Below, in pieces: positions 36,898 through 60,786 of a stretch of DNA of 64,000 bases. A program made the translations under genes and the position numbers. Source of the stretch: Pseudomonas sp. B6002. Its GTDB lineage: Bacteria > Pseudomonadota > Gammaproteobacteria > Pseudomonadales > Pseudomonadaceae. Location: contig NZ_JACAOY010000006.1 in the NCBI RefSeq assembly GCF_013385985.1, positions 186,001-250,000 on the forward strand. Reading direction: 5' to 3'. Numbering within the stretch: position 1 is the stretch's first letter; every line of letters starts with the position of its first letter. Below the pieces are notes generated by a model. The model did no database searches and was not told the origin of the DNA. It worked only from the letters and a program-made list of their open reading frames with translations.

Positions 36898-36900
36898 ATT

Positions 36901-38306: not shown

Positions 38307-38328
38307 AAAAATAATAATTAGCTTAGAT
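38307..38328 (+). promoter_or_regulatory. Shared AT-rich sulfur-promoter motif, copy 3
   Basis: AAAATAATAATTAGCTTAGA lies about 80-100 bases upstream of the class II aldolase gene and shares AATTAGCTTA with the other copies (ATTAGCTTA in the copy at 36901). It is the weakest of the four. Confidence 0.5.
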
Positions 38329-38406
38329 TAAAATGTGCTTTTTATTATTTTTTTGCACCCCGTAGGCTTGCCTGGAAGTCCTTAAGGCCATCCAGGAAGT
38401 TTTGCC

Positions 38407-39201: not shown

Positions 39202-39227
39202 TCCACGGTACACAGCAGATCCAAAAA

Positions 39228-39315
39228 TGTGGGAGCTGGCTTGCCTGCGATAGCATCAACTCGGTTCATCTGAACAACCGAGGTGTCTGCATCGCAGGCA
39301 AGCCAGCTCCCACAT
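39228..39315. repeat. REP/REPIN palindrome pair
   Basis: TGTGGGAGCTGGCTTGCCTG and its complement lie between convergent genes, the same subvariant as the copy at 5197-5286. Confidence 0.86.
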
Positions 39316-39336
39316 TTGATTTTGCAGTGTTCTGAA

Positions 39337-40419: not shown

Positions 40420-40521
40420 GGTCTTTCCTTGTTCAGTGCGTGGTGGTCACCTCCACCGGGCAAGGGGTCGGTTATTCGCCTTCAAAGTAGGGGCAGGGGC
40501 AAGGCCTGTAAAATGCCGATT

Positions 40522-40545
40522 GGTTCTAACCTAATTATTAAAATA
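40522..40545 (-). promoter_or_regulatory. Shared AT-rich sulfur-promoter motif, copy 4
   Basis: On the minus strand it reads TATTTTAATAATTAGGTTAG followed by AACC, 103 bases upstream of the SsuD-like start. Both ends match copy 1 (TATTTTAAT...AACC), and a GATCATT follows each on the outer side. Confidence 0.6.
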
Positions 40546-40683
40546 AAGAATGATCATTTTTTTGTGTATCAGTAATATGCATTTTGTGGCTGCATAAAAA
40601 ATGCCCTTTGCATTCCCGCGGTTGAATTGGTGTTGAGAGTGGTTATCATCACGCCTCGTTCATCAGCCATTGGGAATGCCTTC

Positions 40684-41462: not shown

Positions 41463-41512
41463 GGCGGATCCCGTTAGATGGGCTTTTTCAGCATTTGGGG
41501 CAGGGTGAACAC

Positions 41513-42769
41513 ATGCAATCGGTTGTCGAGACTTCCCCCGCCAGCCCGCGCGCGGCGGTGACGCGGGATTGGCGAATTGTGCTGGTGGTGGCCGGTCTGT
41601 ACCTGGCCCAGGGCTTGCCGGTGGGACTGGCGTTCCAGGCGTACCCCACGCTGTTGCGCAACATGGGCGCCTCCCTCGACCTGGTGGCGTTGACCCCGTT
41701 GGCGAGCCTGCCGTGGGTGGCCAAGCTGTTCTGGGCCGCTGCCGTGGAAAACCGCTGGAGCCCGCGCCTGGGGCGGCGTCGCAGCTGGATTCTGCCGTTG
41801 CAGGCAGGCTCGGTGCTGACCCTGGCGGCCATGGCGCTGGTGCCCTTTGATGTGCCGAACATGGGTCTGTTGCTGGGCCTGATTGCCTTGCTCTCGCTGT
41901 TCAGTGCCACCCAGGACATCGCCGTCGATGGCCTGGCCGCCGAGCGTTTGCCGAGCGCCAGCCTGGGGCGCGTCAACACCTTCCAGGTGGCGGGTTTCAT
42001 GGTCGGCATGCTGCTCGGCGGGCCGGGCACGATGCTGCTGTTCGATCACTTCAGCGCGCCGCTGGTCTTTACCTTGTTGGCGGCTGTGGTGCTGCTGTGC
42101 AGCCTGCCGGTGCTGTTCTGGCAGGAGCCCGCTGCATTGCCGGCGGCAGACAAAGCCAGCCTGCGGCGCTTCTTCAAACGTCGGTTTTCCGGGCGCCTGA
42201 CGGCCCTGGTGATGCTGGTGACTCTTGGCGGCTCGACGTTCTTCGGCCTGGCCAAATTGATCCTGCTCGATGATGGCTGGTCGGTGAGTGATGTGGGGGT
42301 GCTGGCCGGTGTCGGGCAGTTGCTCACCATCATCGTTGGCTGTGGCGTGGCCGGGTTGTTGCTGCGCCATTACTCGCGCTGGAGCACCTTGCTGACGGGC
42401 CTGGCGATGGTCGGTTCGGCCGGAGTGCTGTGGCTGGGTCTGGTGCTGCAACCGGGCCTGTCGGGCATGGGGTATGTGAGCGTGGCGACAGTGCTGGGCG
42501 GGCTGGGCATTGGTGTCACCAGCGTGGCGTCCTACACCTTGGCGATGCGCTTTGCGCAGTTGGGCGAACAGCCGGGCACGGACTGTTCGGTGTTCCAGGG
42601 CTTGCAGACCCTCGGCGATATCCTGGTGTCTTCGGTGGCCATCGGCGTGGCGGCCAGCTGGGGTTACGCCAGTGGCCTGGGCGTCGGCTTGCTGGCCCTG
42701 GCTGCTGCGCTCGGCATGCTCTGGCATGTGCGGCGCAGCACCCGTGGGCTGGGGTTGGACGACGCCTAA
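41513..42769 (+). CDS. MFS siderophore transporter, RhtX/FptX-like
   Basis: The 418-residue protein has about twelve membrane segments. The opening YLAQGLPVGLAFQAYPTLLRNMGASLDLVALTPLASLPWVAKLFWAAAVENRW resembles the RhtX/FptX inner-membrane siderophore importers and the related AmpG permeases. FptX takes up ferripyochelin in P. aeruginosa, so uptake of this locus's ferri-siderophore is likely. Unlike usual fptABCX loci, it lies alone on the plus strand and converges on the biosynthetic operon, its end overlapping the thioesterase gene's end by four bases. ATG 41513 follows AGGGTG. No Fur box was seen in the short gap before it. Confidence 0.8.
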   Translation: MQSVVETSPASPRAAVTRDWRIVLVVAGLYLAQGLPVGLAFQAYPTLLRNMGASLDLVALTPLASLPWVAKLFWAAAVENRWSPRLGRRRSWILPLQAGSVLTLAAMALVPFDVPNMGLLLGLIALLSLFSATQDIAVDGLAAERLPSASLGRVNTFQVAGFMVGMLLGGPGTMLLFDHFSAPLVFTLLAAVVLLCSLPVLFWQEPAALPAADKASLRRFFKRRFSGRLTALVMLVTLGGSTFFGLAKLILLDDGWSVSDVGVLAGVGQLLTIIVGCGVAGLLLRHYSRWSTLLTGLAMVGSAGVLWLGLVLQPGLSGMGYVSVATVLGGLGIGVTSVASYTLAMRFAQLGEQPGTDCSVFQGLQTLGDILVSSVAIGVAASWGYASGLGVGLLALAAALGMLWHVRRSTRGLGLDDA

Positions 42770-43560
42770 GGCATTTCAAGGGCCTGGGAGTGATTCACCC
42801 CCAGGTACCGGCTGACACAGCGCAATACCGCCTCACGCTGGGGCACCAGGTAAAAATGCCCGCCTTCAAAGTGGTGCACCTGCAGGCCTTCACGGGTTTC
42901 CTGTGCCCAGGCCTCGGCATCCCCGGGGTTCAGCTCTCGATCATCACGCCCCACCAGCACCTCGATGGGCACGTTCAAGCGCGCACGCTCGGGGGCGGGC
43001 CGGTACGTCTCGATCAACTGGTAGTCATTGCGCAAGATCGGCAAGGCCATGGCCTGCAGTTCCGGTGAGGTTTGCAAGGCCTTGGGGCTGCCACCCAACG
43101 CGGCAATGTCTGCCAGCAACCGCGCATCGTCCGCCAGGTGCAGGCAGCCGCCGTGATGACGTTCAGGGCCTTCGCGGCCTGACACCATCAAGCAGATCGG
43201 CAGCCTCAGCGCCTGGCGTTGCAAGGCCAGGCACAGCTCATGGGCCACCGCCGCGCCCATGCTGTGGCCGAACAGCGCATAAGGGCGGTCGAGCCATGCG
43301 GGCACGGCCGCCATCAGGGCATTCACCAGCGCATGCATGTGTGGGATCAACGGCTCATTGATGCGCTCTTCGCGCCCGGGCAATTGCACGGCGATCACTT
43401 CAATACTCGGCGGCAGCAGGCGCGCCCAATCGGCAAAAAAACGGGCGCCGCCGCCGGCATGGGCCAGGCAGAACAGGCGCTGGCGGGCCAGGGGGCGCGG
43501 TTCGAAACGGCGCACCCAGCGTTGCTGATGCTGTTGCAGGTGCAGGATTTCATTGAGCAC
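42766..43560 (-). CDS. pchC: Type II editing thioesterase, PchC/YbtT-like
   Basis: The 264-residue alpha/beta hydrolase has the nucleophile elbow GHSMG (Ser100), an acid region VGRDDREL and a final histidine in FEGGHFYLV. The early LFCLAHAGGGARFFADW pattern is typical of NRPS-associated type II thioesterases, which clear wrongly loaded carrier proteins. GTG 43560 is chosen because GAGGA lies ten bases upstream; TTG 43584 would lengthen it by eight residues. It overlaps the end of the imide reductase gene by eleven bases and is the last gene of the siderophore operon. Confidence 0.85.
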   Translation of the reverse strand: MLNEILHLQQHQQRWVRRFEPRPLARQRLFCLAHAGGGARFFADWARLLPPSIEVIAVQLPGREERINEPLIPHMHALVNALMAAVPAWLDRPYALFGHSMGAAVAHELCLALQRQALRLPICLMVSGREGPERHHGGCLHLADDARLLADIAALGGSPKALQTSPELQAMALPILRNDYQLIETYRPAPERARLNVPIEVLVGRDDRELNPGDAEAWAQETREGLQVHHFEGGHFYLVPQREAVLRCVSRYLGVNHSQALEMP

Positions 43561-44632
43561 GGGGCAGGTTCCTCGTTGGGGCAACCCAGGCCTGCATGGC
43601 CAGGGGCACCGGGGGCTCGGGGTGGATGGCTTGGGCGGGGCCCAGCACAGTGCCCAGTTGCTGCCAGGCTTTGCAGCAACTGAGGTGGAACTGTGCCAGG
43701 GCCGAGTCGTTGGGCTGTCCGATTGCGGCGTGTACCCGCAGCAAGGCGTGGGCGATGCTGTCGGGCCACAGGTCGCTGAACACCTCGCGCAAGGTCGGTG
43801 GCTGCGGATGACCGATCAGGCTGCTCACCGCCAGGTCCAGGGCTGGGGCGTCGCCGTCCATTTCCAGCACGCCCTGGGCATTGCGGTGCACGTGGGCGCG
43901 GGGGCTCCACAGCACGCTGGCGTGGGTGTCGGTCAGGCTCAACGTGCCGCCACGGGTGCCCAGCACAATACGGTGCAGCAACTGGGTGTGGTTGTCCGGA
44001 TCGCCCGGGTGCATCTGGTTCTGCACCCGCAAATGCAGGGGGATTCCGGCCAGTTCGCCGCTGATGCTCATGAACGGCCCCACGGCTTCGGCGTGCAGGT
44101 TGAAGGCCCAGGGGCGCAGGCCGCCGAGGGCCTGGCCGAGCATCTCCACCAGCGGGAACAGCACGTGCACGCTGCAGGCGGCTTCGATGTACTCGGCTTC
44201 ACGCAGGCTCAGCACATGGCGCGCCGCGTCGATAAAACACCGCACGGGCGCCAGGTCGCTGTAGAACGGATTGAGCCGGTACAGCACGCCGTGCTGCCGG
44301 GCCAGGCGCAGGCAGTCGACCACTTCGTCGTGATGCACCGGGTGCTCCTGGACCACGTTGATGCCTCGGGCCAGCAATGCCTTGGCCAGCTCGGTGCCAT
44401 GGCCGCCGACCACCGCCGAACGCACGGCCACGCAGGCCAGGTCCACCTCGGGCAGCTCCTCGACATTGCGGTACAGCGGCACCTGCCAGCGCCGGGCACA
44501 GGCCTCGGACGCTGCGCTGCCGCGTCCCAGGATGCCCACCACGTGGTAGTGCGCCGGCAATCGCGCAAGGCCTTGCAGGTAGACATTGCCGAAGGTGGTG
44601 CCGCATACAATCACCCTTAATACCGTGCTCAT
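43550..44632 (-). CDS. pchG: Thiazolinyl imide reductase, PchG/Irp3-like
   Basis: The 360-residue protein has a Gfo/Idh/MocA-like Rossmann start (RVIVCGTTFGNVYLQGLARLPAHYHVVGILGRGS) and the family's mid-region VVQEHPVHHDEVVDCLRLARQHGVLYRLNPFYSDLAPVRCF. PchG and Irp3/YbtU reduce one carrier-bound thiazoline to thiazolidine with NADPH. In this locus it would act on the chain held by the NRPS carrier domains. It starts inside the stop of the saccharopine-dehydrogenase-like gene (ATGA). Two kinds of reductase gene in one operon is unusual. Confidence 0.85.
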   Translation of the reverse strand: MSTVLRVIVCGTTFGNVYLQGLARLPAHYHVVGILGRGSAASEACARRWQVPLYRNVEELPEVDLACVAVRSAVVGGHGTELAKALLARGINVVQEHPVHHDEVVDCLRLARQHGVLYRLNPFYSDLAPVRCFIDAARHVLSLREAEYIEAACSVHVLFPLVEMLGQALGGLRPWAFNLHAEAVGPFMSISGELAGIPLHLRVQNQMHPGDPDNHTQLLHRIVLGTRGGTLSLTDTHASVLWSPRAHVHRNAQGVLEMDGDAPALDLAVSSLIGHPQPPTLREVFSDLWPDSIAHALLRVHAAIGQPNDSALAQFHLSCCKAWQQLGTVLGPAQAIHPEPPVPLAMQAWVAPTRNLPRAQ

Positions 44633-45726
44633 AACACGCCTTCCTCTTCGGCCGTGGTCGTCTGCGCCGCCAGGTTGACGATGCTCAGGGCCTGGCACGC
44701 AGAGTCGGCTTGCACGGCCGTGATCACGTCGTCGGGCATCAGGCAGTCACCGGCCCAGTGCGCGCCACGCCAGGACGGATCGCGCAGCAACTGCAACGTC
44801 GCACACACCGCGACGCAGGCACTCAGCCCATAACTGTCCTGGCTGCTCAGTACCGCGCGTTGGCGCACGGCTTGCCCGCCACGCCAGCCGCTGAGTTCCA
44901 CGCTCAGCCGGTAGTACGGGCGACGGCCGAGCAATTGCAGTTCAGCGGCGTGCACCAGTTGCGCCACCGCAGCGGGCAGGGCGCTCGGGTCCTGGCTCAG
45001 GCGTTGGCATGACGCAGCGATCAGCGCCGGGATCTCGGCCTGGTCGAATACGTTATGAAAGCTCGCCCGGGGCACACCAAGGGTGCGCGCCAGGCGTTGC
45101 AGTTCATCGGTGAGGTAGGCACTGCAAAACACCGCTTCGGGAAAGCCCGCCAGGCGCTGAGCCTGCTGCTCGATTGGCGATGCTTGCACACGGCCTTCTA
45201 CCCATTGGGCGTTCGGCGTACCAAAGCCGCCCAGGGCGCTGAGCAACACATCGGCACCGCCGGCCTGGCTGCAATGCTCGCGGCCACCGGCGTGAATGTG
45301 CAGGCTACTGACCCGGTCGAAGCCCCGATTCGCCATCCAGCGCGGCAGCAACGCAGTAAGGCCCGGAAACACCCCGGCGCCGATGATTGAAGGCTGACGG
45401 GCACCCTGTAACGCCGTCAGCAACGCCGCATTGCCAAAGGCATCCACATACGCCGCACCCGCCGCCTGGGCGGCTTGGGCCACGCGGTCACCCACTTGCC
45501 ACGACGGCCCCGCGCAGTTGAGGACCACCTGGCAGCCGCTGCAAAACGCCGCCAGTGCCTGTGGGTCGAATACATCCAACACCCCTCCATCGACATCTTC
45601 TGGCCAGCTTTGAGCCCGGCGCTGGCCTGCACGCACGTGCACGTCCGCCTGCCGCCGCAACTGAGCCAGCGCCGCGCTGCCCACGGCCCCTCCGGCGCCG
45701 ACCAGTCCAACCAAACGCCGGCTCAT
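44629..45726 (-). CDS. Saccharopine-dehydrogenase-like protein, possible second thiazoline reductase
   Basis: The 365-residue protein starts with a Rossmann motif (LVGLVGAGGAVGSAALAQL). It carries the family pattern VVLNCAGPSWQVGDRVAQAAQAAGAAYVDAFGNAAL, then IIGAGVFPGLTALLP. From memory, the enantio-pyochelin locus of P. protegens uses a reductase, PchK, unlike PchG; I cannot confirm that it is of this family. Given its place in the operon, between the terminal NRPS and PchG-like genes with ATGA overlaps on both sides, a tailoring reduction of a ring is the most likely role. Dehydrogenation of a thiazoline to a thiazole is another option. Confidence 0.72.
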   Translation of the reverse strand: MSRRLVGLVGAGGAVGSAALAQLRRQADVHVRAGQRRAQSWPEDVDGGVLDVFDPQALAAFCSGCQVVLNCAGPSWQVGDRVAQAAQAAGAAYVDAFGNAALLTALQGARQPSIIGAGVFPGLTALLPRWMANRGFDRVSSLHIHAGGREHCSQAGGADVLLSALGGFGTPNAQWVEGRVQASPIEQQAQRLAGFPEAVFCSAYLTDELQRLARTLGVPRASFHNVFDQAEIPALIAASCQRLSQDPSALPAAVAQLVHAAELQLLGRRPYYRLSVELSGWRGGQAVRQRAVLSSQDSYGLSACVAVCATLQLLRDPSWRGAHWAGDCLMPDDVITAVQADSACQALSIVNLAAQTTTAEEEGVL

Positions 45727-48700
45727 GCGGGCACCTGCGCGCCCAGCAGCACGGGCAACAGTTGGCTGACATGGGGCGCCTGCATGCACGACACATGGTC
45801 GCCGCTGATGGTCTGCAAGCTGATGTCGCCCAGCGCCAAATCATTCCAGAAACCGCGCATATCGCCTTGCAGGCCCGGCAGGAAATGCAGGGTCTCGTCG
45901 TCGAGCAGGATGCGCAGGTCACCGGTAAACGGCGCCGGTTGGTAACGCGCCACGGCATTGAGGCTGTGGCGGAACACGCGGAACAGCGCCTGCACTTGTT
46001 CGGCTGGCATCGGCTCGGCTTGGGTCTGTACCTGAGCGGCGAGGGCTTGCAGACGCCTGTCGCTGGGTTGCTCGGCGAGCTGGCGGTAGCTGGCCGCGAT
46101 GGGCGCCCATTCACCATCCAGCTGTTGCAGGCAATCGGCCGGGAGTTGCCGGCCGTGGCGCTCGATCAAGTGCGCCAGGGCACTGTGTAAACCGGCGTCG
46201 TCGACCGCATGCCCGGCCGCCTGGATATCGGCCCCGAGCAAGCGGCCGAAGGCGCGTTCCAGCAACAGTTCATCGGCGATTTCATAGCGGAAGCGGTCGC
46301 TGCTGATTATGCTCACGGTGCCCACCTGCGCACCGGCTTCCAGCAAGCAGCGGGCGACCTCAGTGGCCAGCAGGCCGCCCATGCAATAGCCCACCAATTC
46401 GAAGCGCAGGTTGCCGTGGGCCAGCAGTTCACTGGCATACCGTGCGCCCAACTGTTCGATCAATTGTTCGGCGTCCACCTTCAGGTACGCCGCTTCATCC
46501 AGCAGGCTCAGGCCCAGGATCGCACCTTGGCGTTGCGGCGCCGTGCGCAGGGCGGCGAGCAGGCTGCGGTAAGGGGCGAGGGTGCCGCTGCCGTCGTGCA
46601 GCAACACATGCACGGTGCTGCACGCCGGGTCGCGAGCCGGCGCCAGTACGCTCAAGCACGATGCGTCGGTGGCGTGGCCGGTGGGCGCTTGCGCCGGCGC
46701 ATCCTGCAAGCGTGCGGCGATGGCCTTGACCGTGGGTTCACGCAGCACTTCGCGCAGCAGGCGATCCCATTCCCAGCCTGAGGTTTCCGGCAGTTGCTCG
46801 CGCATCTTGGCGACGATCTGCGCCACCAGCAGCGAGTCGCCACCGGCTGCGAAAAAGTCCTGGTCCCGGGCCAAGTCGGTGCAACCCAACGCTTGGCTCC
46901 AAAGCTTGGCGATACGTTGTTCCAGATCGGTTTGCGGCGCTTCACCGCTGTCCATCACGCTGCTGCCTTGAGCCTGCAGGCGCTGGGCCAGGCGTGCGCG
47001 ATCGACCTTGCCATTGGCCGACAGGGGCAGGCTTTCGAGCACTTGCAGCTGGCTTGGCACCATGTAGCCGGGCAGGCGCTGGTGCAGGTAGTCCTGCAGT
47101 TGTTCACTCCCCAGCGCCACGCGACGCGCCGGGAAGCGTGTGACAAATGTGGTCTGGCCCGCGCAATCGAGCACGTCCTGGGCCTGGGGCCACGCGGCCA
47201 CCAGTTCGGCGCCGGCGTCGCTGAACAACGCCTGCCATTGGGCGCGGCTGATAAAGGTCTGGTCACTGCCGGCGCGCAAGTCGGTGAAGCCGTCCAGGCC
47301 TTCCTTGAATTCCATGGAGGTCAGCAATGAAAGGATCTCGCGGGTGGCCTCCATCACCAGCAAGTGCCCACCGGGCGCTGCCAATTCGCGCAGGCTGTTC
47401 AACACCGTGGGCGCATGGCGGGCGTTGTGAAGCACGTTGGCGCAGACGATCAGGTCCCAGCTTCCCGCGTTCAGCCCCTGGGTCAGGGCATCGCTGTTGA
47501 TGTCGAACAGGCCGAAGCGCACCCACGGTCGGTCGGCAAAATGCTCACGTGCTTCGTTGATAAAAAACGTCGAGACGTCGGTGAACAGGTAATCCACGGC
47601 AAACCCATCCAGGGCCGGGATCAAGTCGCGGCTGGTGCCGCCCACCCCGGCGCCGATTTCCAGCACCCGTAGCGGCAGGCCGAGGGCGGCGCGCTCACGG
47701 GCAATGTGCTGGGCGCTGGCGCAGATCACCTGGTTCATGCAGCGCATCAACAGGTTTTCGTGATAGGCCGCCAGCGCGGTGTCCATGCTGCCCTGGGGGA
47801 ACAGCAGCGCCAGCGGGTCGACCTCGCCACTGAGCAACTGCGGCAGGCGCTCGCTGGACTCGTGCAAATAACGCAGCAGTTCGGCGCCATAGTTCAGGCG
47901 TTGCTCCAGGGCATTCATGGCCTGCCAGCACACGGCGCGCTGGTCGGCCGCGGGGGCTTCGCCCAGGCGGTAGCCGTCGGCGTCTTGCAACAGCCAGCCT
48001 TCGTTGACCAGCGCCTTGAGCCAGCGGCGCATCAGGCGTTGATGGGCCGGCGCAACACGGCATTGCTGCTGCACCTGGGCCAGGCTGTGGCGGGCCTTGG
48101 CATCGGTGAACAGCCCGGCGTCGCGCAGGGTCTTGAGGATGTCGAGCAGGGCGATACGGTTGGCCATCGCCACCCATTCGGCGAACAGGCTGCGGTCCAG
48201 CTGTTCGGTGGCCTGGGCGCCACATGCCAGGGCACTGTCGGCCAGGGGCGCGGCGCTGCTGTCGGTGTTCAGGTGGCGCGCCTCGACGAACGCGGCCAGG
48301 CGGCGCTCCATCGGGTTGTCACCGCTGAGCAGCACCACGCCGTGGGCCACGTCCGGGTGTTCGTTGAGCAGGCTTTCGATTTCGCTGAGTTCGATGCGGT
48401 GCCCGCGCAACTTGACCTGGGTGTCTTCGCGGCCGAGGAACTCGATCTGCCCGTCGGCACGGTAGCGGCCGAAGTCGCCAGTACGGTACAGCCGCGCGCC
48501 GCTGTGGGGGTGGCGGACAAAACGCTGGTCGCTGCGCTCGGGGTCGTTGAGGTAACCGTCTGCCAGGCCCACGCCGCCGATGTACAACTCGCCGGCCACG
48601 CCGTCCGGGCGGTCCTGGAATTGTTCGTCCAGCACATGGAACTGCTGGTTGGCCAAGGGGGTTCCGTAGGGAATGCTGCGGGCGTTGGCGGGGACGCTGT

Positions 48701-51197: not shown

Positions 51198-54100
51198 AAG
51201 GTGCCTTCCTCGAAATGCTCGGCGTGTTGTTCGGTAGGGCTGCCCAGGTAGTCGCACAGGGCGGCGATGCTCGGATGAGCGAAGAGTTCGCGCAGGCTCA
51301 GCGGGGCCAGGCACACGCGGCGGCGCTTGAGGGTTTCCACCAGGCGCGTGGCGCTCAGGCTGTCGCCCCCCAGCAGGAAAAAATCACTGTGGCGCCCGGG
51401 GATCGGGCGTTGCAGCACCTCGCTCCAGATCTCCGCCATTTCCCGTTCCTGCGCACCTTGCGGGGCATCGCTGTGTTCAGTTGCGATGTCCGCCAGGCAT
51501 TGACGCAGCGCATTGCGGTCGGCCTTGCCGTTGGCGCTCAAGGGCAGCTCGTTGAGCAGGTGCAGGCTGGCGGGCAGCATGTAGTCCGGCAGGCGCTGGC
51601 GCAGCTGTTGACGCAGCACTTCCAGCGACACCTCGCCGTCGACCACCACGGCGGCGGCCAGGCTTGGCGGGTTGCCCAGGGTTACCGTGAGCGCCTGGCG
51701 TACCTGCGGGCAGGCGAGCAGGGCGTTGTCGATTTCCCCCAATTCAATGCGATGGCCGCGCACTTTTACCTGTTGGTCGCGGCGGCCGAGAAACTCCAGG
51801 CTGCCGTCCGGCCAGTAGCGGCCCATGTCGCCGGTGCGGTACCAGCGCTGGCCGTCATGCTCGACAAAGCGCTCGGCCGTCAGCTCGGCTGCGCCGCGAT
51901 ACTCCATGGCCACGCCGCGCCCGCCAATCCACAGCTCGCCGGTGACCCAGTCCGGGCAATCGCGCCCTTGGCTGTCCACCACGCGATAGCACTGGTTGCC
52001 CAGCGGGCGGCCGTACGGGATCGATTGCCAGTGGCGGGGCAACGGCAGGCAAACGGGCTGGTAGTTGGACCAGATCGCCGCTTCGGTGGCACCGCCCATG
52101 GCGATCAACTGGCAGCGACCATGACTGGCCGCGTGCAGGCGCGCCGGCAGGTCGAGGCCGATCCAGTCACCGGACAACCAGGCCTGGCGCAGCGGCAAGG
52201 TGTCGGCCACGGTCAGCAACATGTCCAGCAGCATCGGCACCGAGTTCCACAGGGTGACCTGGTGTTGCTGGATCAGGCGCTGCCAGGCCGAGGCATCGCG
52301 GCGCTGCTCTTCATCCAGCAGCACCACGCTGCCGCCCACCGCCAGCACGCCGAAGAGGTCGTACACCGACAGGTCGAAGTCCAGCGCGGACACGGCCAGC
52401 AAGCGGTCTTCGGCACCGATGACGAAGCGCTGGTTGAGGTCGTCCAGAGTATTACAGGCGGCGCGATGGCTGATCTGCACACCCTTGGGCTCACCGGTGG
52501 AGCCGGAGGTGAAGATCACGTAGGCCGGGCTGTCGACGCTGACGGCGACGGGCGCGGGCAGTGCTTCGCTGTGCAGGGCCAGGGCCAATTGTTCGGCATC
52601 CAGGGTCAGGCGAATGGCTGCGCGCTGTTCGATGCGTTGGCGGCGCTCCAGCGGTTGGCGCATGCCCATCGGCACGTAGCAGGCGCCGGCGGCCAATACG
52701 CCGAACAGGGCGATCACCGCGTCAGCCCCCCGGGGCAGGTGCACGCCAATGGCGTCGGCGGGTTGCACGCCCTGGGCCTGCAGCCAGGCGGCCACCCGCA
52801 GGGCGCCTTCACGCAATTGCCCATAGCTGACGCGGCGCTCGCCGTCGATCAGGGCCAGGCGTCGGGAGGCGATGGCGAAGGGCGCGTCGAGCAGGGTCCG
52901 GGGGGCAATCTCGACGGCAGTGGCATTAGCCTGGGCGCGTATTTGCGCTTGGTTGCCTGGCAGTGGCAAGGCCAATGGCGCCTGCCAGTCGGCGTCGATC
53001 AGCCCGAGCAAAGCCTGAGTGTAGCTGGCAAAGGCGGCGTCCAGCAGGCCCTCGGGAAACAGCGCATCTACCGCATCCCAGCACAGCACCAGCGCGCCGC
53101 GATGTTCATAGAGCTGGTGGTCGAGCCACACCTGCGGGGTTTCCGACAGGCCGCCAGCGACGATGTCCGGGAAGCCTTCGGGCAGGTCTTGCAGCAGGTC
53201 ATCGGCCAGCCCCAGGGTGCTGGTGAACACCACCGGCAATGCGGCGGCCTGCGGTCCGACTCGGCGGGCGCGTTCGCGTTGCACCCAGATGGATGAGCAC
53301 GCTGCGTGTTGCAGCACATCGGCGACTTGCGCCTGCACCGCCTGGGCTTCGCTGAGGAAGCTGGCGTGGGCGCGCGGGTAGACACTCACCGGCGCCAAGG
53401 ACGTGAAGTCCCCGAGCACCTGGCCAATCTGCGGGTGCAGGTCCTGGCGGTCGAACAGCGTCAGGTTGAGGGTGTGCGGCTGGCCGTCGCTCCAGCGCGC
53501 CAGGGTCTGGGCATATACGCTCAGCAACAGCACCGAGGCGGTGATGCCAGACTCGCGCGCCCGTTGGCGCAAGGCTTGCCACTGCGGCGCGGCCAGGCGG
53601 AATTCGCGGCGGCTGAAGTGCACCTCGCCCAACTGCTGCGGCGCGGTGTGCAACGGTAGCGCCGGCGGGCCGGGCAGGTCGTCCAGGCGTGCCTGCCAAT
53701 AGGCCTGGGCGAGTGCAAGGCCCGCCGGGTCGGGTTGGACCTGCAGCACGTAATCGCGAAACGACAGGTCCAGCGCAGGCAGTTGCGTGTGCGGCTGGGT
53801 GTAGAGCAGCGCCAGTTCCGCCAGCAGGCGCTTGATGCTCAGGCCGTCGAGGGTCAGGTAGTCGAAGAACAGCCCGACACGCCAGCCGTGCTCGCCATAG
53901 CTGACGGCATGCACCTCGAACATCGGCCACTGATGGCGCGGGCGCGATGCCCAGCACTCGGCCAGGCGCTGACGGGCGGCGGCCGCGTCAGGCGCCTGGT
54001 GCCGATGCACCTGCATCGGCGGCACCTCGGGCAGGATCACCTGCTGGTCATCGCCCACCAACTGCGCACGCAGCATTTCATGGCGCTGAATGAGGCGGTC

Positions 54101-57100
54101 CCAGGCCTGTTCGAAGCGTGGAATGTCCAGCGCTGCGCCGTCCAGTTCGATCAGGTAGGTGGTGCCGCACGACAGCGGCAGGCCCTGGCTTTGTCCGCGC
54201 CAATAAGCTTGTTGCACTTCGGTGAGCGGGAAGGGTTGATGGCGTTGGCCGGGGTTGGCCACCAGGCGTTGCTCGGCCTGTACACCGGGGGTTTGCAACT
54301 GCGCCACGAACTCCGCCAGGCGCGGCGTGGCAAACAGCTGCCGCAGGCTCTGCGCATTGGCCAGGCCAGCGCGGCGCAGGCGTGCGCTGCATTGGGTGGC
54401 GAGCAGGCTGTCGCCGCCCAAACGGAAGAAATCACTCTGGCGATACACCTGGGCACCGGGCAGCAGCTCGGCCCAGATCGCGGCAACCTGTTGCTCGCGT
54501 TCACCGCACGGCGCTTCGTTGGCGGTGGCATGTTGCGGGTGAGCCTGCTCGGCCAGTGTCACCAGTGCGTGGCGGTCGAGTTTGCCGTTGGCACTCAGGG
54601 GCAGCGTGTCCAGCAACAGCCATTGGCTGGGCAACATGTAGTCGGGCAGTTGCGTGCCGAGGGCCTGGCGCAGTTCCTCGGTGCACAGCGCCCCTTCGGT
54701 CGGGACCACCGCCGCCAACAGGTGCAACGGCGTACCCACCGCCAGGGCCACCGCCTGGCGGATGCGCGGTTGCACGAGCAGGGCGTTTTCGATTTCGCCC
54801 AGCTCGATACGGTGGCCGCGCACTTTCACCTGGTGGTCGCGGCGGCCGAGGAATTCCAGGCGGCCATCGGGCCAATAGCGGCCCAGGTCACCGGTGCGGT
54901 ACCAGCGTGCGCCCTGGTGTTCAACGAAGCGCTCGGCGCTCAGGTCCGGCGCACCTCGGTAACCGTCGGCGACGCCCGCACCGCCGATCCACAGCTCGCC
55001 CGCCAGCCAATCCGGGCAGTCGCGGCCCAGGCTGTCGACCACGCGATATTGCTGGTTGCCCAACGGCGTGCCGTAAGGGATCGAGCGCCAGTGCGCCGGC
55101 AAGGGCAGGTCCACCGGTTGATAGTTGGACCAGATCGCCGCCTCGGTGGCGCCGCCCATGGCGATCAAGCGGCAACCGCCGTTGCTGGCCGTGTGCAGGC
55201 GTGCAGGCAGGTCGAGGCCGATCCAGTCGCCGGACAGCCACGCCATGCGCAGCGGCAGCGTGTCGGCCACGGTCAGCAGCATGTCGAGCAGCAACGGCAC
55301 CGAGTTCCACAGGGTGACCTGGTGTTGCTGGATCAGGCGGTTCCACATCGAGGCGTCGCGGCGTTGCGCTTCGTCCAGCAGCACCACGCTGCCGCCCACG
55401 GCCAGCACGCCAAACAGGTCGTACACCGAGAGGTCGAAGTCCAGTGCTGACACGGCGAGCAAGCGGTCGTTTTCAGTGATGGAGAAACGTTGGTTCAGGT
55501 CGTCCAGAGTATTGCAGGCAGCGCGATGGCTGATCTGCACGCCCTTGGGTTCGCCGGTGGAGCCGGAGGTGAAGATCACATAAGCCGGGCTGTCGGGGCT
55601 CACCGCCACAGGTGCCGGCAGCGGCGCGAAGGCCAGGGCGTGATCCAGCCAGGCAGGGTCGATCAGCGTGTCGATGGCGGCACGTTGGCAGATGCGTTCG
55701 CGACGCGCCTGGGGCTGGCTCGGGCTGAGGGGCACATAACACGCGCCCGCCGTGAGTACGCCATACAACGCCAGCACCGCACGATGGCCACGGGGCAGGC
55801 ACACGCCCACCGCGTCACCCGGTTGCACACCCTGTTCCAGCAGCGCTGCAGCAATCCGCAGGGCGCCCTGTTGCAGCTGTGCGTAGGTGATGCGCTGGTC
55901 GCCATTGATCAGGGCCAGGCGCTCACCGCTGATGGCAAACGGCGCTTGATGCAGCGTGCGTGGAGCAATCGCGGTGGCGGTGGCGTTGACCTGTTGGCGC
56001 ACCTGGTGCTGCTGCGCTGGCAAGTGTGCGAAGGCGGGCGCATCCCAAGCATTGTCGTGTTGCAGGTTGTGGAGCAGGTCCAGGTAGGCGCCGAACATGG
56101 CGTCCAGCAGGCCCTCGGGAAACAGCGCGTCCTGGGCATCCCACGCCAGTAGCAGGGCGCCGTCCTCTTCGTAGACCTGGTGGTCGAGCCACACCTGCGG
56201 CGTCTGGGAAATCATCTGGGTGAGGGCGCCGAGGGTTTGCGCGTCCCTTTGGCCCAACAGCGGCGTGCCGAGGTTGCAGGCAAACACCACCGGCGAAAAA
56301 CTGCGCTGGCCCGCACCACGTAGGGCGAGGTCGCGTTGCACCTGCACCCCGGAATAGTCGGCGTGGGCCATGTCGCGGTGGAACTGCGCCTGCACCTGCA
56401 TCAGTTGCTGGGCGACGCTGCCGGGCTGGCGCAGGTCGACTTCGAGCAACAGCAGGTTGGTGAAGTCCGCCACGACTTGATCCAGCCCCGGCGTGTCGCC
56501 CTGGCGATCGAACAGCGGCAGGTTGAGCAGAAAGTGCGGCACCTCGCTCCAGCGCCCCAGCACCTGGGCGAAGGCCCCGGCGAGCAGCATGGCCGGGGTG
56601 AGCTGGCGCTTGGCGGCGGCCTCCCGCAGGCGTTGCCACACCGCTGGCGTGAGGCGTTGCTGGCGACGGGTAAAGCGCACCTGCTCGATGGCCTCGGGTT
56701 CGCAGGCCAAAGGCAGGGCGGGGCCGGCGGGCAGGTGGTCCAGTCGCGCCTGCCAGTACTGCGCGGCGCTGGCTTTAGGGGCCGGGCGTTGGGCCAGGTA
56801 GTGCGCGAAATGCCAATCGCGCCCGGCCTCGGTCAGGCGTTCGCCACGGTACAGCGCGGCCAGGTCACGCAGGATCAGGTGCAGGCTGTGCACGTCCGCC
56901 ACCAGCAGGTCGAGGTCGAAGTGCAGGCGCGTACGGCCCTCGGGCAGCAGGCTAAGTTGCAGCCCGGCGACTTCGCCGTGTTCGACCGCCAGTTGCCGGT
57001 GGGACAGGCTGTCACGCGTCGCCTGCAAGGCCTGTTCCCGGGCCGCCGGTGCCAGGCCGCGCAGGTCGTGAACCTGCAGCGCGGACATGCCGTCGTCGAG

Positions 57101-57571
57101 GATCTGCTGGCGGCCTTCGTCATCAAACCGCGCACGCAACATGCCGTGCCATTGCTGCAACCCTTGCCAGGCAAAGGCTAGTTGCTGCGGGTCGAGGGCG
57201 TCGCCGTCCAGCTCCAGGTAAGCGTGACAACCGACGCCGCCCAGCACCTGCTCGGCGCCTCGGCCAATCCAGTAGGCGTGTTGCACGTCGGTGAGGGCGA
57301 AGGGCGCGGCAGGGTCGATCACGACAGCCGCGTTGGCCGCTTTACGCGGGGTGGCCGTGAGGCGTGGCAGCCAGTGGGCGAGGGTCGGTTGTTCGATCAG
57401 GTCGGCGAAGGTCACGGGGGCGCCGGCCTGGCGCCATTGGTTGACCAGGCGCATCAGGTGCAGGGAGTCCAGTCCCAGCTCGATCAGGTTGGCTTGATCG
57501 TCCAGCGCCGGGCCACCGTGCAGCAGCGCGCCAATCTGTTCGCGCAGGTGTTCGACCGTCAGCGCACTCAT
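51194..57571 (-). CDS. NRPS with two cysteine modules: ArCP-Cy-A-PCP-Cy-A-PCP
   Basis: This 2125-residue synthetase opens with an aryl carrier domain (1-75, GLDSL, Ser36). The order is Cy1 (about 90-510; Asp221, Asp226, Ser229), A1 (535-1000; D713, L714, Y717, N756, I813, W814, Lys997), PCP1 (Ser1055), Cy2 (1115-1530; Asp1237, Asp1242, Ser1245), A2 (1555-2020; D1733, L1734, Y1737, N1776, I1833, W1834, Lys2016) and PCP2 (Ser2071). Both pockets fit the cysteine code of PchE/HMWP2. PchE has one such module with an epimerase-like insert; here there are two and neither A domain has an insert. It should make a salicyl chain with two cysteine rings and pass it to the TubC domain of the next NRPS. 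Confidence 0.9.
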   Translation of the reverse strand: MSALTVEHLREQIGALLHGGPALDDQANLIELGLDSLHLMRLVNQWRQAGAPVTFADLIEQPTLAHWLPRLTATPRKAANAAVVIDPAAPFALTDVQHAYWIGRGAEQVLGGVGCHAYLELDGDALDPQQLAFAWQGLQQWHGMLRARFDDEGRQQILDDGMSALQVHDLRGLAPAAREQALQATRDSLSHRQLAVEHGEVAGLQLSLLPEGRTRLHFDLDLLVADVHSLHLILRDLAALYRGERLTEAGRDWHFAHYLAQRPAPKASAAQYWQARLDHLPAGPALPLACEPEAIEQVRFTRRQQRLTPAVWQRLREAAAKRQLTPAMLLAGAFAQVLGRWSEVPHFLLNLPLFDRQGDTPGLDQVVADFTNLLLLEVDLRQPGSVAQQLMQVQAQFHRDMAHADYSGVQVQRDLALRGAGQRSFSPVVFACNLGTPLLGQRDAQTLGALTQMISQTPQVWLDHQVYEEDGALLLAWDAQDALFPEGLLDAMFGAYLDLLHNLQHDNAWDAPAFAHLPAQQHQVRQQVNATATAIAPRTLHQAPFAISGERLALINGDQRITYAQLQQGALRIAAALLEQGVQPGDAVGVCLPRGHRAVLALYGVLTAGACYVPLSPSQPQARRERICQRAAIDTLIDPAWLDHALAFAPLPAPVAVSPDSPAYVIFTSGSTGEPKGVQISHRAACNTLDDLNQRFSITENDRLLAVSALDFDLSVYDLFGVLAVGGSVVLLDEAQRRDASMWNRLIQQHQVTLWNSVPLLLDMLLTVADTLPLRMAWLSGDWIGLDLPARLHTASNGGCRLIAMGGATEAAIWSNYQPVDLPLPAHWRSIPYGTPLGNQQYRVVDSLGRDCPDWLAGELWIGGAGVADGYRGAPDLSAERFVEHQGARWYRTGDLGRYWPDGRLEFLGRRDHQVKVRGHRIELGEIENALLVQPRIRQAVALAVGTPLHLLAAVVPTEGALCTEELRQALGTQLPDYMLPSQWLLLDTLPLSANGKLDRHALVTLAEQAHPQHATANEAPCGEREQQVAAIWAELLPGAQVYRQSDFFRLGGDSLLATQCSARLRRAGLANAQSLRQLFATPRLAEFVAQLQTPGVQAEQRLVANPGQRHQPFPLTEVQQAYWRGQSQGLPLSCGTTYLIELDGAALDIPRFEQAWDRLIQRHEMLRAQLVGDDQQVILPEVPPMQVHRHQAPDAAAARQRLAECWASRPRHQWPMFEVHAVSYGEHGWRVGLFFDYLTLDGLSIKRLLAELALLYTQPHTQLPALDLSFRDYVLQVQPDPAGLALAQAYWQARLDDLPGPPALPLHTAPQQLGEVHFSRREFRLAAPQWQALRQRARESGITASVLLLSVYAQTLARWSDGQPHTLNLTLFDRQDLHPQIGQVLGDFTSLAPVSVYPRAHASFLSEAQAVQAQVADVLQHAACSSIWVQRERARRVGPQAAALPVVFTSTLGLADDLLQDLPEGFPDIVAGGLSETPQVWLDHQLYEHRGALVLCWDAVDALFPEGLLDAAFASYTQALLGLIDADWQAPLALPLPGNQAQIRAQANATAVEIAPRTLLDAPFAIASRRLALIDGERRVSYGQLREGALRVAAWLQAQGVQPADAIGVHLPRGADAVIALFGVLAAGACYVPMGMRQPLERRQRIEQRAAIRLTLDAEQLALALHSEALPAPVAVSVDSPAYVIFTSGSTGEPKGVQISHRAACNTLDDLNQRFVIGAEDRLLAVSALDFDLSVYDLFGVLAVGGSVVLLDEEQRRDASAWQRLIQQHQVTLWNSVPMLLDMLLTVADTLPLRQAWLSGDWIGLDLPARLHAASHGRCQLIAMGGATEAAIWSNYQPVCLPLPRHWQSIPYGRPLGNQCYRVVDSQGRDCPDWVTGELWIGGRGVAMEYRGAAELTAERFVEHDGQRWYRTGDMGRYWPDGSLEFLGRRDQQVKVRGHRIELGEIDNALLACPQVRQALTVTLGNPPSLAAAVVVDGEVSLEVLRQQLRQRLPDYMLPASLHLLNELPLSANGKADRNALRQCLADIATEHSDAPQGAQEREMAEIWSEVLQRPIPGRHSDFFLLGGDSLSATRLVETLKRRRVCLAPLSLRELFAHPSIAALCDYLGSPTEQHAEHFEEGTL

Positions 57572-60531
57572 GGCTGCACCTCCGCGGCGCGCTGGGTTTC
57601 AACGGCCAGCACGCGCACATGGGGGGCGATGCTGGCGAGTTTTTCGCGGGTTTCTTCCAGTTCCCGTTCGGGCAGCGACAACGAGACAATCCCCGCGCCG
57701 GCCTGCACCCAGGCCTGGCCCTGGTCTTCGAACACGCTGCGCAATACCAGGGCGGCGTCGAGGCTGCCGTCGCTGTCGGCGATCAGCACGCAACCGCTGT
57801 AGAGGTCGCGGCTGCGGCCCTCGTGCTCGGCAATCGCGGCGATGGCTTCACGCTTGGGAATGCCCGATGCGGTCACGGCGGGGAACAGCGCGGCGAAAGC
57901 GTGCCAGGCATTGCAGTCGGGCTTGAGCCGGCCTTTGAGGCGCGAACTCAGGTGCTGCACGCTGCCTCGCCGCGAGATGCCCATGAACTCGCTGACCCCC
58001 AGGCCTTGTGGCTCGCAGATCGGTTGCAGCTCTTCAAACGCCAGCTTGACCGACACCGCGTGCTCGGCGATTTCCTTGGGGTCCTGGTACAGCGATTGGC
58101 GCAGGCGCGCTTCCTCTTCCACGTCACGGCCCAGCGCGCGCGTGCCGGCCAGGGGCTGGGTGCTCACGGCGCCGCCGGCACTGACTTCCACCACGGTTTC
58201 CGGGCTGAAGCCTACGCAGGAGAACCCGCCCTGATGATGGATGAACGAGCGCGCCGGCGTGTTGGCGCGCCGCCCGGCGCGGTAGCTGGCCACCAGATCG
58301 ACGCGACCGTCGAGGGGCACTTTGCGCGACAGGATGATCTTCTGGTAATCGCCACGGACGATCTGCGCCACGGCGCTTTCGACCTGGCTGCAATACCGCG
58401 CAGCGTCATGCCCGGCGACGTCCACTAAGGCGGCGCGGGGCAACGGTTGATCCAGGGCGCACTCGGCGTCCAGCGCCTGCACGCGGCTTTGCGCGGCGGC
58501 GAGGGCGGCCGGTTGCAGGGCGCGAATCAGCGCGCAGCCTTCGCGCAGGCGGATCTCCAGGGTGGGGATGTCCAGGTGCAGCAGCGGGCGTGTGCTGGGC
58601 AGGTCTGCCAGTTGGTAAAAGCGTCGCGCCAGTTCAAAGGTAGCAGTGCCGTAGGCGCGCCACTGTTCGAAGGGCAGGGCCTGGGCGGCTTTTTCCAGGG
58701 CCAGCGGGATGTCGTCGGCGGGCCAGCTCCAGCGCTGGCCGGCCACGCTCAATTGCACGGTGCTGCCGCTGAGGCGTACCTGGGCGATGCTGCCCACACC
58801 GAGGGACCATTCGCCCTGGTGCTCGTAAAGGGTCAGGTCCTCGGGCAGGTAGACACCGGCCAGGGCGGCCGCCAGGTCCTGCGGTTCGGCACTGATCGGC
58901 ACGCGGCATTCCAGGTAGCGCTGGCGGGGTTCGGCATTGCATTGGAAGCGTTGCTGCAATTGGCGTTTGTCGAGTTTGCCGACGCTGGTCAGGGGCCAGC
59001 TGTGCAGGATTTCCAGTTGGTCCGGCCACTTGTGGCGCGGCAGGCCGAGGCCCTGGAAATGCTGGTGCAGGGTGCTCAAGGCAAAGGGTTGCGGCGTGTG
59101 CAGGATCACGCAGGCGCACACCCGTTCGCCCAGGCGTTCGTCGGTGAGGGCGACCACGGCGGCGTCTTGCACCAGCGGGTGTTCGCGCAGCAGTTGTTCG
59201 ATTTCGGCAGCGGCGATTTTTTCGCCGGCGCGGTTGATCTGTTCCTTGATCCGCCCCTCGACCACCAGGTTGCCGTCGGCGGTCCAGCGCGCCAGGTCGC
59301 CGGAATGGAAGAAGCCTTCGGCGTCGAACACCTGGCGGTTGTGGGCGTCGGCACGGTAATAGCCGGCGATGGTGTAGGGGCCGCGCACGATCAGCTCGCC
59401 GACTTCGCCGGGGGCGACGGGGGTGCCATTCGCGTCCACCAGGCGCACGTCGTCGGCGCTGCACAGGGGCCGGCCTTGGGTATTGAGCACCACCGATTGC
59501 GGGTCATCCAGGCGGGTGTAGCAGAGCAAGCCCTCGGCCATGCCGAACACTTGTTGCAGGGCGCAGCCCAGGGCGGGCGCGACACGTGCGGCAACGTCGC
59601 TGGACAGCCGCGCGCCGCCGACCTGCAACAGGCGCAGGCTCGACAGGTCACTGTGGTCCCACTCGCGCGCCTGCAGCCACAGCTTCACCAGGGGCGGCAC
59701 CAGGGCGGTGTGGGTCACGCGGTGGCGGGCGATCAGATCGAAGGCTTCATCGGCCCCGGCCGTGCGCGAGAACACCACGCGACCGCCGCTGGACAAGGCA
59801 CCGATCAGCCCCGGGCAAGCCAGTGGAAAGTTATGCGCGATGGGCAGGGCGGCGAGGTACACCGAGTTTTGGTCGAACCCGCAGAGTTGCGCAGACGCCA
59901 TGGCGTTGTAGGCGTAATCGGCATGGCTGCGCGGGATCAGTTTGGGGGTGCCGGTGGTACCGCCGGACAGCAACAGCAACGCGGTGCTGTGGGGGTCGAC
60001 CTTCGCCGGTTCGCGCAGCGCGCCGTTGACGCTGGCCAGGGTCACGCCTTGAGCGGCCACGGCACCGGCGATGATCAACTGTTTCAGGGACGGGCACAGC
60101 GCCAATTGGCGTTCGGCCATGGGCCGGTAATCAAAGCCCAGGAAGCGCTCGGCGACGATGTAGGCACTGGGTTCGGCCAGCTCGCACAGGGCCTGGATTT
60201 CCCGTTCGCGGTGCGCCGGCATGGCCAGGATCGGCCATGCGCCCACCCGCAACAGGGCGAACAGGGTGCGGGCGAAGTCGATGCCGTTGGGCAGTTGCAC
60301 CAGTACGCGGTCGCCGCTGTGGATGCCGAGGTCGGCCAGCCCACCGGCGAGGCAACACACTTGATGTTCGAAGTCGCGGTAGCTCAGTTGTTGCTCGCCT
60401 TCGATCAGGGCGATGCGTGGTCCGAAGGTGCGTGCCCAGCCTTGCAGGTGCTCATTCAGGCTTTGGGGTTGCCACAGGCCGCCTCCGGTCAGGTGCTGGG
60501 CTTGAGTGTCGCGCCAATGAAGAGGGTGCAT
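57568..60531 (-). CDS. Fused salicyl-AMP ligase / salicylate synthase
   Basis: This 987-residue protein joins two complete enzymes. Residues 1-535 form an aryl-AMP ligase (PchD/YbtE/DhbE type), with the phosphate loop LSGGTTGTPKLIPRSH (189-203), the hinge GRIKEQINRAGEKI and Lys519 near SVGKLDK. Residues about 545-987 form a salicylate synthase of the MbtI/Irp9/YbtS type: GDYQKIILSRK (Lys731), FSPE (Glu778), PLAGTRALG (793-801), EHAVSVKLAFEEL and a C-terminal GSLDAALVLRSVFEDQ with AGAGIVSLS. It should turn chorismate into salicylate and load it on the aryl carrier domain. ATG 60531 follows AAGGAG. It is the first gene of the operon. No separate PchA/PchB genes are present. Confidence 0.9.
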   Translation of the reverse strand: MHPLHWRDTQAQHLTGGGLWQPQSLNEHLQGWARTFGPRIALIEGEQQLSYRDFEHQVCCLAGGLADLGIHSGDRVLVQLPNGIDFARTLFALLRVGAWPILAMPAHREREIQALCELAEPSAYIVAERFLGFDYRPMAERQLALCPSLKQLIIAGAVAAQGVTLASVNGALREPAKVDPHSTALLLLSGGTTGTPKLIPRSHADYAYNAMASAQLCGFDQNSVYLAALPIAHNFPLACPGLIGALSSGGRVVFSRTAGADEAFDLIARHRVTHTALVPPLVKLWLQAREWDHSDLSSLRLLQVGGARLSSDVAARVAPALGCALQQVFGMAEGLLCYTRLDDPQSVVLNTQGRPLCSADDVRLVDANGTPVAPGEVGELIVRGPYTIAGYYRADAHNRQVFDAEGFFHSGDLARWTADGNLVVEGRIKEQINRAGEKIAAAEIEQLLREHPLVQDAAVVALTDERLGERVCACVILHTPQPFALSTLHQHFQGLGLPRHKWPDQLEILHSWPLTSVGKLDKRQLQQRFQCNAEPRQRYLECRVPISAEPQDLAAALAGVYLPEDLTLYEHQGEWSLGVGSIAQVRLSGSTVQLSVAGQRWSWPADDIPLALEKAAQALPFEQWRAYGTATFELARRFYQLADLPSTRPLLHLDIPTLEIRLREGCALIRALQPAALAAAQSRVQALDAECALDQPLPRAALVDVAGHDAARYCSQVESAVAQIVRGDYQKIILSRKVPLDGRVDLVASYRAGRRANTPARSFIHHQGGFSCVGFSPETVVEVSAGGAVSTQPLAGTRALGRDVEEEARLRQSLYQDPKEIAEHAVSVKLAFEELQPICEPQGLGVSEFMGISRRGSVQHLSSRLKGRLKPDCNAWHAFAALFPAVTASGIPKREAIAAIAEHEGRSRDLYSGCVLIADSDGSLDAALVLRSVFEDQGQAWVQAGAGIVSLSLPERELEETREKLASIAPHVRVLAVETQRAAEVQP

Positions 60532-60573
60532 GGTTCGGGCTCCTTGTGAGGGTCGCTGGAAAGCTGGTTTGTT

Positions 60574-60586
60574 GAGAATCATTCTC
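60574..60586. promoter_or_regulatory. Fur box between biosynthesis and ABC genes
   Basis: GAGAATCATTCTC is a perfect 6-1-6 palindrome of the Fur type (GATAAT-N-ATTATC consensus). It lies 43 bases upstream of the ligase/synthase start and about 200 upstream of the ABC genes, so iron repression of the biosynthetic operon, and perhaps of both, is expected. Confidence 0.85.
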
Positions 60587-60786
60587 CTTATTCAACGAAT
60601 GGACTGCCCGAAACCGAACGTCATGGCCCTGATCCGAATTTTTTGGTTACAACCTTATGCCCAAAAGTGCGCAGCGCCGGGCCAGCAATAATTCCCATCC
60701 GGGGCCTGTGCGAACCGATCAGGGGAGCCGTCGACCGGCCGCTTGATCAATCATCCCGGGACACTCGAATCAGGCTGGGGATGGCG

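Follow-up and report, generated by a model that had tools for sequence, protein, structure and literature searches.

A pyochelin-like siderophore cluster in a Pseudomonas related to a mushroom pathogen, most likely for a product with an extra cysteine ring and two reduced rings

Mupirochelin (PMC10080011) and sorangibactin (PMC10127202) are chemically studied relatives of the locus described here. Mupirochelin and sorangibactin C are described with the identical formula, C22H28N4O4S3, and a nearly identical gene set (PMC10080011, PMC10127202), which suggests that they are the same kind of molecule. Specifically, mupirochelin, for which an iterative four-residue structure was proposed, may instead be built from an aryl-oxazoline, a pair of N-methyl-thiazolidines and a homocysteine thiolactone. 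For Pseudoalteromonas, two thiazolinyl imine reductases have been reported in ulbactin biosynthesis (PMC12819058). In Pseudomonas, a 'pyochelin-like 1' cluster was predicted with the layout A / C-A-T-C-A-T / C-A-MT-T-TE and called ulbactin F-like, and both 'pyochelin-like 1' and '2' were predicted to give aryl-Cys-Cys-Cys (PMC8719888, eLife 2021); the three-cysteine idea is therefore not new. Some of these 'pyochelin-like' clusters may be mupirochelin-like. A literature search on pyochelin-like together with thiazolidine found nothing, and the one paper found that names both Pseudomonas gingeri and siderophores mentions neither pyochelin nor yersiniabactin in its main text; an earlier description of the present cluster is possible.

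The window analysed here is a 64,000-nucleotide stretch (G000:C48:186001-250000) of the 6.68-Mb genome of Pseudomonas sp. B6002, a relative of a mushroom pathogen. As read from its genes, the window holds most of a cluster whose product is most likely a pyochelin-like siderophore with an extra cysteine ring and two reduced rings. The locus is an intact, well-organised variant among aryl-thiazoline siderophores, plausibly a new relative of known siderophores and not a new kind of system.

Gene organization and probable regulation

The siderophore operon lies on the minus strand in the order fused ligase/synthase, two-module non-ribosomal peptide synthetase (NRPS), one-module NRPS, two reductases and type II thioesterase. 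The features of the cluster are as follows, with L009 coordinates for those beyond the window.

40629..40653: Fur-box-like doublet before the methyltransferase-importer pair (two overlapping 12/19 matches 6 bp apart)
40684..41418, plus: stand-alone SAM methyltransferase (ORF from 40627, likely ATG 40684)
41495..42769, plus: MFS transporter of the RhtX/FptX siderophore-transporter family, probable importer (TIGR02718)
42766..43584, minus: type II thioesterase, PchC-like (PF00975, E 1e-48)
43550..44698, minus: PchG/Irp3-type thiazolinyl imine reductase (TIGR01761, PDB 4gmf)
44629..45789, minus: PchK-type (saccharopine-dehydrogenase-like) reductase (PF03435)
45723..51197, minus: PchF-like NRPS, TubC docking-Cy-A(MT)-PCP-TE (Pfam, motifs, pocket DLYNLSLIW, GYCMGG)
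51194..57571, minus: PchE-like two-module NRPS, ArCP-Cy-A-PCP-Cy-A-PCP (Pfam, motifs, two pockets DLYNWSMIW)
57568..60531, minus: fused salicyl-AMP ligase and salicylate synthase (TIGR03494; Pfam AMP-binding, Chorismate_bind)
60568..60592: Fur-box-like doublet, divergent promoter (two overlapping 13/19 matches 6 bp apart)
60643..62568, plus: ABC transporter half 1, membrane and ATPase domain (PF00664/PF00005)
62486..64000, plus: ABC transporter half 2, running 264 bases past the window end
L009:4269-5216 and L009:7516-8673: AraC regulators beyond the window
L009:5346-7541: TonB receptor beyond the window

The three large minus-strand ORFs are 57568-60582 (1004 aa, ATG at 60531), 51194-57571 (2125 aa) and 45723-51314 (1863 aa, likely ATG 51197). 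An earlier note on this DNA had given the operon as 42766-60531. The coordinates fit, the ATG at 60531 being the end of that range, but cluster genes on both flanks were left out, namely the methyltransferase, the FptX-like importer, the ABC pair, the TonB receptor and the AraC regulators. The methyltransferase and MFS genes adjoin the 42766 end and are convergent with the siderophore operon. An ORF at 39769-40575 was discarded, as a strong luciferase-type monooxygenase lies across it on the opposite strand. The neighbours at 34640-40419, beside this cysteine-hungry pathway, look like sulfur metabolism (a four-rhodanese protein, a cysteine-dioxygenase-like protein, a LysR regulator and an alkanesulfonate-monooxygenase-like enzyme); these genes have no match on L080, a piece of the related genome G200.

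The layouts ArCP-Cy-A-PCP-Cy-A-PCP and TubC-Cy-A(MT)-PCP-TE, as well as three intact Cy motifs, had been proposed before and are borne out by Pfam domains and motifs; the Cy motifs read DLLVADVHS, DYLTLDGLS and DLLVADFVS. The 2125-aa protein contains two Condensation domains, two AMP-binding domains and three carrier stretches, and the PchF-like protein contains TubC_N, Condensation, AMP-binding, Methyltransf_12, PP-binding and Thioesterase domains. Carrier serines, A3-A10 motifs, the SAM motif VLEIGAGVG and the thioesterase motif GYCMGG are all present. Judged by alignment, this is full-length coding homology and not chance, with a PchE (PDB 7emy) match at E 1.9e-264. The A domains of the 2125-aa NRPS have no PchE-like epimerase insert (Pfam, PDB alignment), and the enantio series is therefore expected. 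Consistent with the earlier claim that a malonyl unit is missing, no PKS domain was found among the operon proteins scanned.

The gene at 57568-60531 fuses two consecutive pathway steps, salicyl-AMP ligase and salicylate synthase. The synthase half scores 449 bits with TIGR03494 (NCBIfam equivalog cut-off 325), while the ligase half scores 613 bits, below the dihydroxybenzoate-ligase cut-off of 723, which would fit a salicylate enzyme. Single-piece matches of the fused gene also occur in two Pseudoalteromonas records (a 1009-aa frame in L087) and a Klebsiella plasmid record; in the fragmented G200 assembly it has no close match (best 29%).

Uptake-type genes, a TonB receptor and an FptX-type transporter, are present. 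The match of the MFS protein to TIGR02718 spans residues 27-408 and reaches 294.5 bits, short of the curated cut-off (356.15). With a doublet defined, after an earlier scan, as both registers matching at least 12/19 and lying 6 bp apart, there are exactly three Fur-box doublets in 31 kb. They lie at 40629, 31 bp before the likely ATG of the methyltransferase (40684); at 60568, 37 bp before the likely ATG of the fused enzyme (60531); and at 67441, 27 bp before the likely ATG of the TonB receptor (67414). Block shuffles gave a mean of 0.035 doublets, and 0 of 200 reached three. Single Fur-like sites of at least 13/19 also occur at 38304, 65302 and 68506. The cluster is probably iron-controlled, and the Fur-like sites together with TonB/FptX-type uptake genes are those expected of a siderophore system.

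Close copies are carried by two named relatives. Pseudomonas sp. P7548, labelled P. gingeri, has 97% identity over the 2125-aa NRPS on a contig that stops inside the Irp3-type gene, and P. viridiflava isolate p11.D4 has part of the NRPS gene at 83% on a 7.2-kb contig. We infer that G200 and L011 are one genome. In G200 the cluster is split over several contigs: L080 ends with the methyltransferase and the beginning of the MFS gene, and L071 carries the remainder of that gene, the type II thioesterase, Irp3, PchK and part of PchF. Gene order thus appears to be kept in G200, with the contig ends joined by deduction. Past the methyltransferase, L080 (contig C158) carries ArdC, a TraI_2 relaxase/helicase, a second TonB receptor and a periplasmic binding protein, suggesting that the cluster there lies within a conjugative element.

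Adenylation pockets, reductases and the stand-alone methyltransferase

The nine mapped pocket positions (235, 236, 239, 278, 299, 301, 322, 330 and 331) read DLYNWSMIW in A1 and A2 and DLYNLSLIW in A3. The earlier assignment of three cysteine-type pockets holds: S301, I330 and W331 are as in PchE and the bacillamide synthetase BmdB in PDB alignments, the two pocket anchors used here, both of which are presumably cysteine-specific. A1 and A2 are 75.6% identical, and modules 1 and 2 therefore probably share a substrate; A1 and A3 are 51.1% identical. W299 is also found in the PchF-like pocket of a Burkholderia arboris locus (DLYNWSLIW).

The S301, I330 and W331 of window A1 stand in place of the G301 and H331 marks of the hydroxy-amino-acid type. 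Twelve of the 13 loci of mupirochelin-like layout differ, with DLFNLGLIH as the first adenylation pocket visible. In all of these loci except L069 the fetched region ends within the first NRPS, and 'mch-like' is our own label for the 12, the A1 code having been among the sorting criteria. Likewise, all three Streptomyces loci that we call coelibactin-like have DLWQLGLVH or DLYNLGLIH in this position, and in the Pantoea line both of the first two adenylation pockets visible read DLYSMGLIH. This contrast with the sibling lines supports Cys-Cys-Cys. The 13th locus of mupirochelin-like layout, L072, has the cysteine-type DLYNLSLIW at its first A domain seen, so cluster type alone does not predict the pocket. 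For sorangibactin A1, antiSMASH called cysteine and labelled feeding gave serine (PMC10127202), which shows that a 'Cys' call by antiSMASH is not always right for A1. From pockets and domains together, a predicted backbone of salicylate plus Cys-Cys-Cys with no malonyl unit is well supported.

The two reductases belong to different families. The protein of 43550-44698 scores 310 bits with TIGR01761 (cut-off 188.8) and matches PDB 4gmf at E 2e-38; residues H101 and Y128 of the 4gmf chain, which we take to be catalytic candidates, are conserved in the alignment. The protein of 44629-45789 is 33-38% identical to the reductase beside PchF in seven of seven Pseudomonas loci that we class as enantio-pyochelin-type, and a PchK-like gene lies directly 3' of PchF in 7/7 two-module Pseudomonas loci. 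In the enantio-pyochelin cluster of Pf-5, PFL_3491 is listed as 'saccharopine dehydrogenase PchK' (PMC3377617), and it is from this table entry and the gene order that 44629-45789 takes its putative label of PchK-type reductase. The saccharopine-dehydrogenase-like protein of sorangibactin, listed with function unknown, is probably also a PchK-type second thiazoline reductase.

A PchK-like gene was found at E 1e-12 in 23 of 399 genus genomes (best 4 candidates scored per genome). With G051 added, the 24 genomes sort into seven of enantio-pyochelin type; 12 mch-like, including one broken locus and five without a P450 match; two of the window type (G000, and G200 in pieces); two of another type (G003, where a single NRPS holds three cysteine modules, and G336, where two are seen before the contig end); and G051 itself, with three cysteine-type modules and both reductases. 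Irp3 was found at E 1e-8 in 15 of the 24 (the 12 mch-like genomes, the two of the window type and G051) and was not found at this threshold in the seven enantio-pyochelin-type genomes, G003 or G336. Among plasmid records, all three two-module lines (Azospirillum, Burkholderia and Clostridiaceae) have one reductase in the stretch read, and all four lines of at least three modules (three Streptomyces, one Pantoea) have both; L023, a Streptomyces line, gave no thioesterase motif match. The compared lines are related, so these counts are not independent. Both reductases occur together in the window, in L010 and in the G200 piece L071. Because both accompany the compared two-protein lines of at least three modules, two thiazolidines are likely; L073 (G003), and probably L070 (G336), are exceptions to a simple rule, so that ring number is not always paired with two reductases.

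In protein trees built from 28 PchF-like and 27 PchK-like rows, which omit the fragments L011 and L071, the broken L069, and L070 and L073, the window type is on its own deep branch; because of the long branches, its exact neighbour is unsure. In the 13 loci of mupirochelin-like layout, comprising the mch-like L052, L053, L055, L056, L059, L062-L065, L067, L068 and the broken L069 as well as L072, the PchK-like gene follows the last NRPS at a distance of about 3.5 kb, which matches the gene order published for mch. L069 (G380) is split into several frames in its NRPS and reductase genes, which probably reflects either decay of the locus or a sequencing error. L072 (G051, from a different family of this order) has mupirochelin-like gene spacing and tree position, pockets that are all cysteine-type (DLYNLSLIW twice, then DLYNMSMIW) and both reductases; it is a candidate second three-cysteine line. 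The single NRPS of L073, 3277 aa long, reads DLYNMSMIW in all three pockets. This locus also has a weak PchK-like gene and unfused genes for salicyl-AMP ligase and salicylate synthase, whose products are 59% and 53% identical to the halves of the window fusion. L070, with two DLYNMSMIW pockets before the contig end, looks like the L073 type.

The methyltransferase of 40684..41418 shares 38-41% identity with those of coelibactin-like and Pantoea clusters; its solved relatives are weakly similar (best E 1.8e-6). At E 1e-8, with the best 6 candidates scored per genome, it was found in two of 399 genus genomes, the two with the window-type cluster. The mupirochelin-like genomes had no match for it. 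All four plasmid records with strong matches also carry PchF-like and PchK-like genes, and the gene lies within the cluster in each of the three regions opened.

Predicted pathway, product and alternatives

We regard as probable, from gene content, a Fur-controlled locus for a product of salicylate and three cysteines with two thiazolidines and thioesterase release. The genes, their domains and motifs, the pockets, the co-occurrence of genes and the Fur-like sites are read from the sequences; ring count, the assignment of reductases to rings, the place of methylation, release, transport and regulation are deduced. In the proposed pathway, the fused enzyme would convert chorismate to salicylate, which would then be activated onto the ArCP. 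The three Cy domains would join and cyclise three L-cysteines with no epimerisation, giving a hydroxyphenyl-thiazoline and two further rings. These two would become thiazolidines, one through the Irp3/PchG-type enzyme and the other through the PchK-type enzyme, and the last would be N-methylated by the MT domain of the final module. The stand-alone methyltransferase probably supplies a second methyl, most simply on the middle thiazolidine, and could act on carbon or oxygen instead. The terminal thioesterase would free the chain, by default as the free acid. The iron complex would be returned via the TonB receptor and the FptX-like transporter, the ABC pair would move the siderophore or its complex into or out of the cell, and the AraC (PchR-like) regulators would respond.

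With two reductions and one N-methyl, the computed acid is C17H21N3O3S3 ([M+H]+ 412.0818); with the second methyl, C18H23N3O3S3 (426.0974); with one reduction, C17H19N3O3S3 (410.0661). The two masses put forward in the earlier note, 410.07 and 412.08, are arithmetically right (410.066, 412.082), but the former is less likely than the latter because two different reductases are present. Two thiazolidines and an [M+H]+ of 412.08 are the likely prediction; the co-located methyltransferase may raise the product ion to 426.10 if it acts on the chain.

A product with a single reduced ring, one reductase being redundant, would have the 410.07 ion and seems unlikely to us. It has a precedent in Streptomyces venezuelae, reported to carry two pchK genes but to need just one of them to reduce the thiazoline (PMC11626248). 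Here, however, the co-occurring enzymes are of different families, each compared two-protein line of at least three modules has both, and sorangibactin, with two thiazolidines, is reported to be abolished by deletion of either reductase type (PMC10127202). Module layout, both reductases and the Cys thioesterase speak for a thiazoline version of the sorangibactin/mupirochelin type, in which the Cys-nucleophile thioesterase would release the chain onto homocysteine as a C-terminal thiolactone (C22H28N4O3S4, [M+H]+ 525.11); this we consider decidedly improbable. Since loci that we class as pyochelin- and enantio-pyochelin-type also have the Cys thioesterase motif, and pyochelin itself is a free acid, the motif has no diagnostic value. 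It was set aside as a marker of homocysteine release, being common to a Burkholderia pyochelin-type locus (GYCSGG) and the enantio-pyochelin-type loci (GYCLGG). The VOC-family gene (SrbJ) needed by sorangibactin was not seen among the neighbours scanned. Of the same formula and mass, the full all-sulfur counterpart of sorangibactin/mupirochelin is slightly more doubtful again. It would combine a hydroxyphenyl-thiazoline with two thiazolidines, N-methylated once by the MT domain and once by the stand-alone enzyme, and its homocysteine thiolactone would be made by the Cys-nucleophile thioesterase.

Ulbactins had been named as the closest class, which is probably not the case, and an ulbactin cluster is very improbable. 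The fused ligase/synthase is 49% identical to the Pseudoalteromonas one, there are three cysteine modules, and ulbactin analogues identified from Pseudoalteromonas are reported to need two thiazolinyl imine reductases (PMC12819058). However, Pseudoalteromonas L087, which we infer to be an ulbactin-type locus, has four modules and a terminal NAD_binding_4 domain for reductive release, and neither window reductase has a homologue in the 34 kb read (E 1e-6), whereas the window has three modules and TE-type release.

The preferred reading, salicylate and three cysteines with two thiazolidines, predicts definite masses for an as yet undetected siderophore of Pseudomonas associated with mushrooms and plants. 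It makes testable the PchK-type second-reductase role of the saccharopine-dehydrogenase-like protein that sorangibactin needs, and the use of A1 residues 301/331 as a divider between cysteine-first and hydroxy-amino-acid-first lines, both of which automatic tools can call cysteine.

Comparison with described siderophore systems

Enantio-pyochelin (pch) of Pseudomonas resembles the window locus in its PchD/E/F logic, PchK-type reductase and PchC-like thioesterase, and its PchF is, L010 aside, the closest to window PchF (48-49% identity). The window adds one cysteine module, an Irp3-type reductase and the stand-alone methyltransferase, and its ligase and salicylate synthase are fused, whereas enantio-pyochelin has an isochorismate synthase plus lyase. 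Pyochelin and enantio-pyochelin have two cysteine modules, one each in PchE and PchF, and one reductase, PchG or PchK; the window has three modules with three Cys pockets, and both reductase types.

Yersiniabactin shares salicylate, Cy domains, an Irp3-type reductase and an Irp9-type salicylate synthase with the window, but has a PKS module (HMWP1) and a malonyl unit, neither of which is predicted from the operon proteins scanned. The 'pyochelin-like 1' and '2' clusters are compared with the window here by published layout (for '1') and predicted aryl-Cys-Cys-Cys backbone (for both; PMC8719888).

The window has the coelibactin/sorangibactin/mupirochelin layout, that is, a two-module and a one-module NRPS, MT, TE and both reductases. 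The mupirochelin cluster (mch) of Pseudomonas sp. NCIMB 10586, compared here by its description, is similar in its two-module and one-module NRPS with MT and TE, its saccharopine-dehydrogenase-like and thiazolinyl reductases, and its AraC and TonB genes; unlike the window, it is described with a P450, a VOC protein, two other methyltransferases and separate isochorismate enzymes (PMC10080011). A P450 of the coelibactin kind has no match in the window (E 1e-8), nor in L072 or the five mch-like regions counted above. Sorangibactin/coelibactin-like clusters share the module layout, both reductases and the Cys thioesterase (PMC10127202), and the coelibactin-like L021 and L022 contain a homologue of the window methyltransferase. 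Sorangibactin differs from the window prediction in its first residue, serine with an oxazole, its P450 and a homocysteine thiolactone reported as shown (PMC10127202). Mupirochelin and sorangibactin are closer comparisons for this locus than ulbactin.
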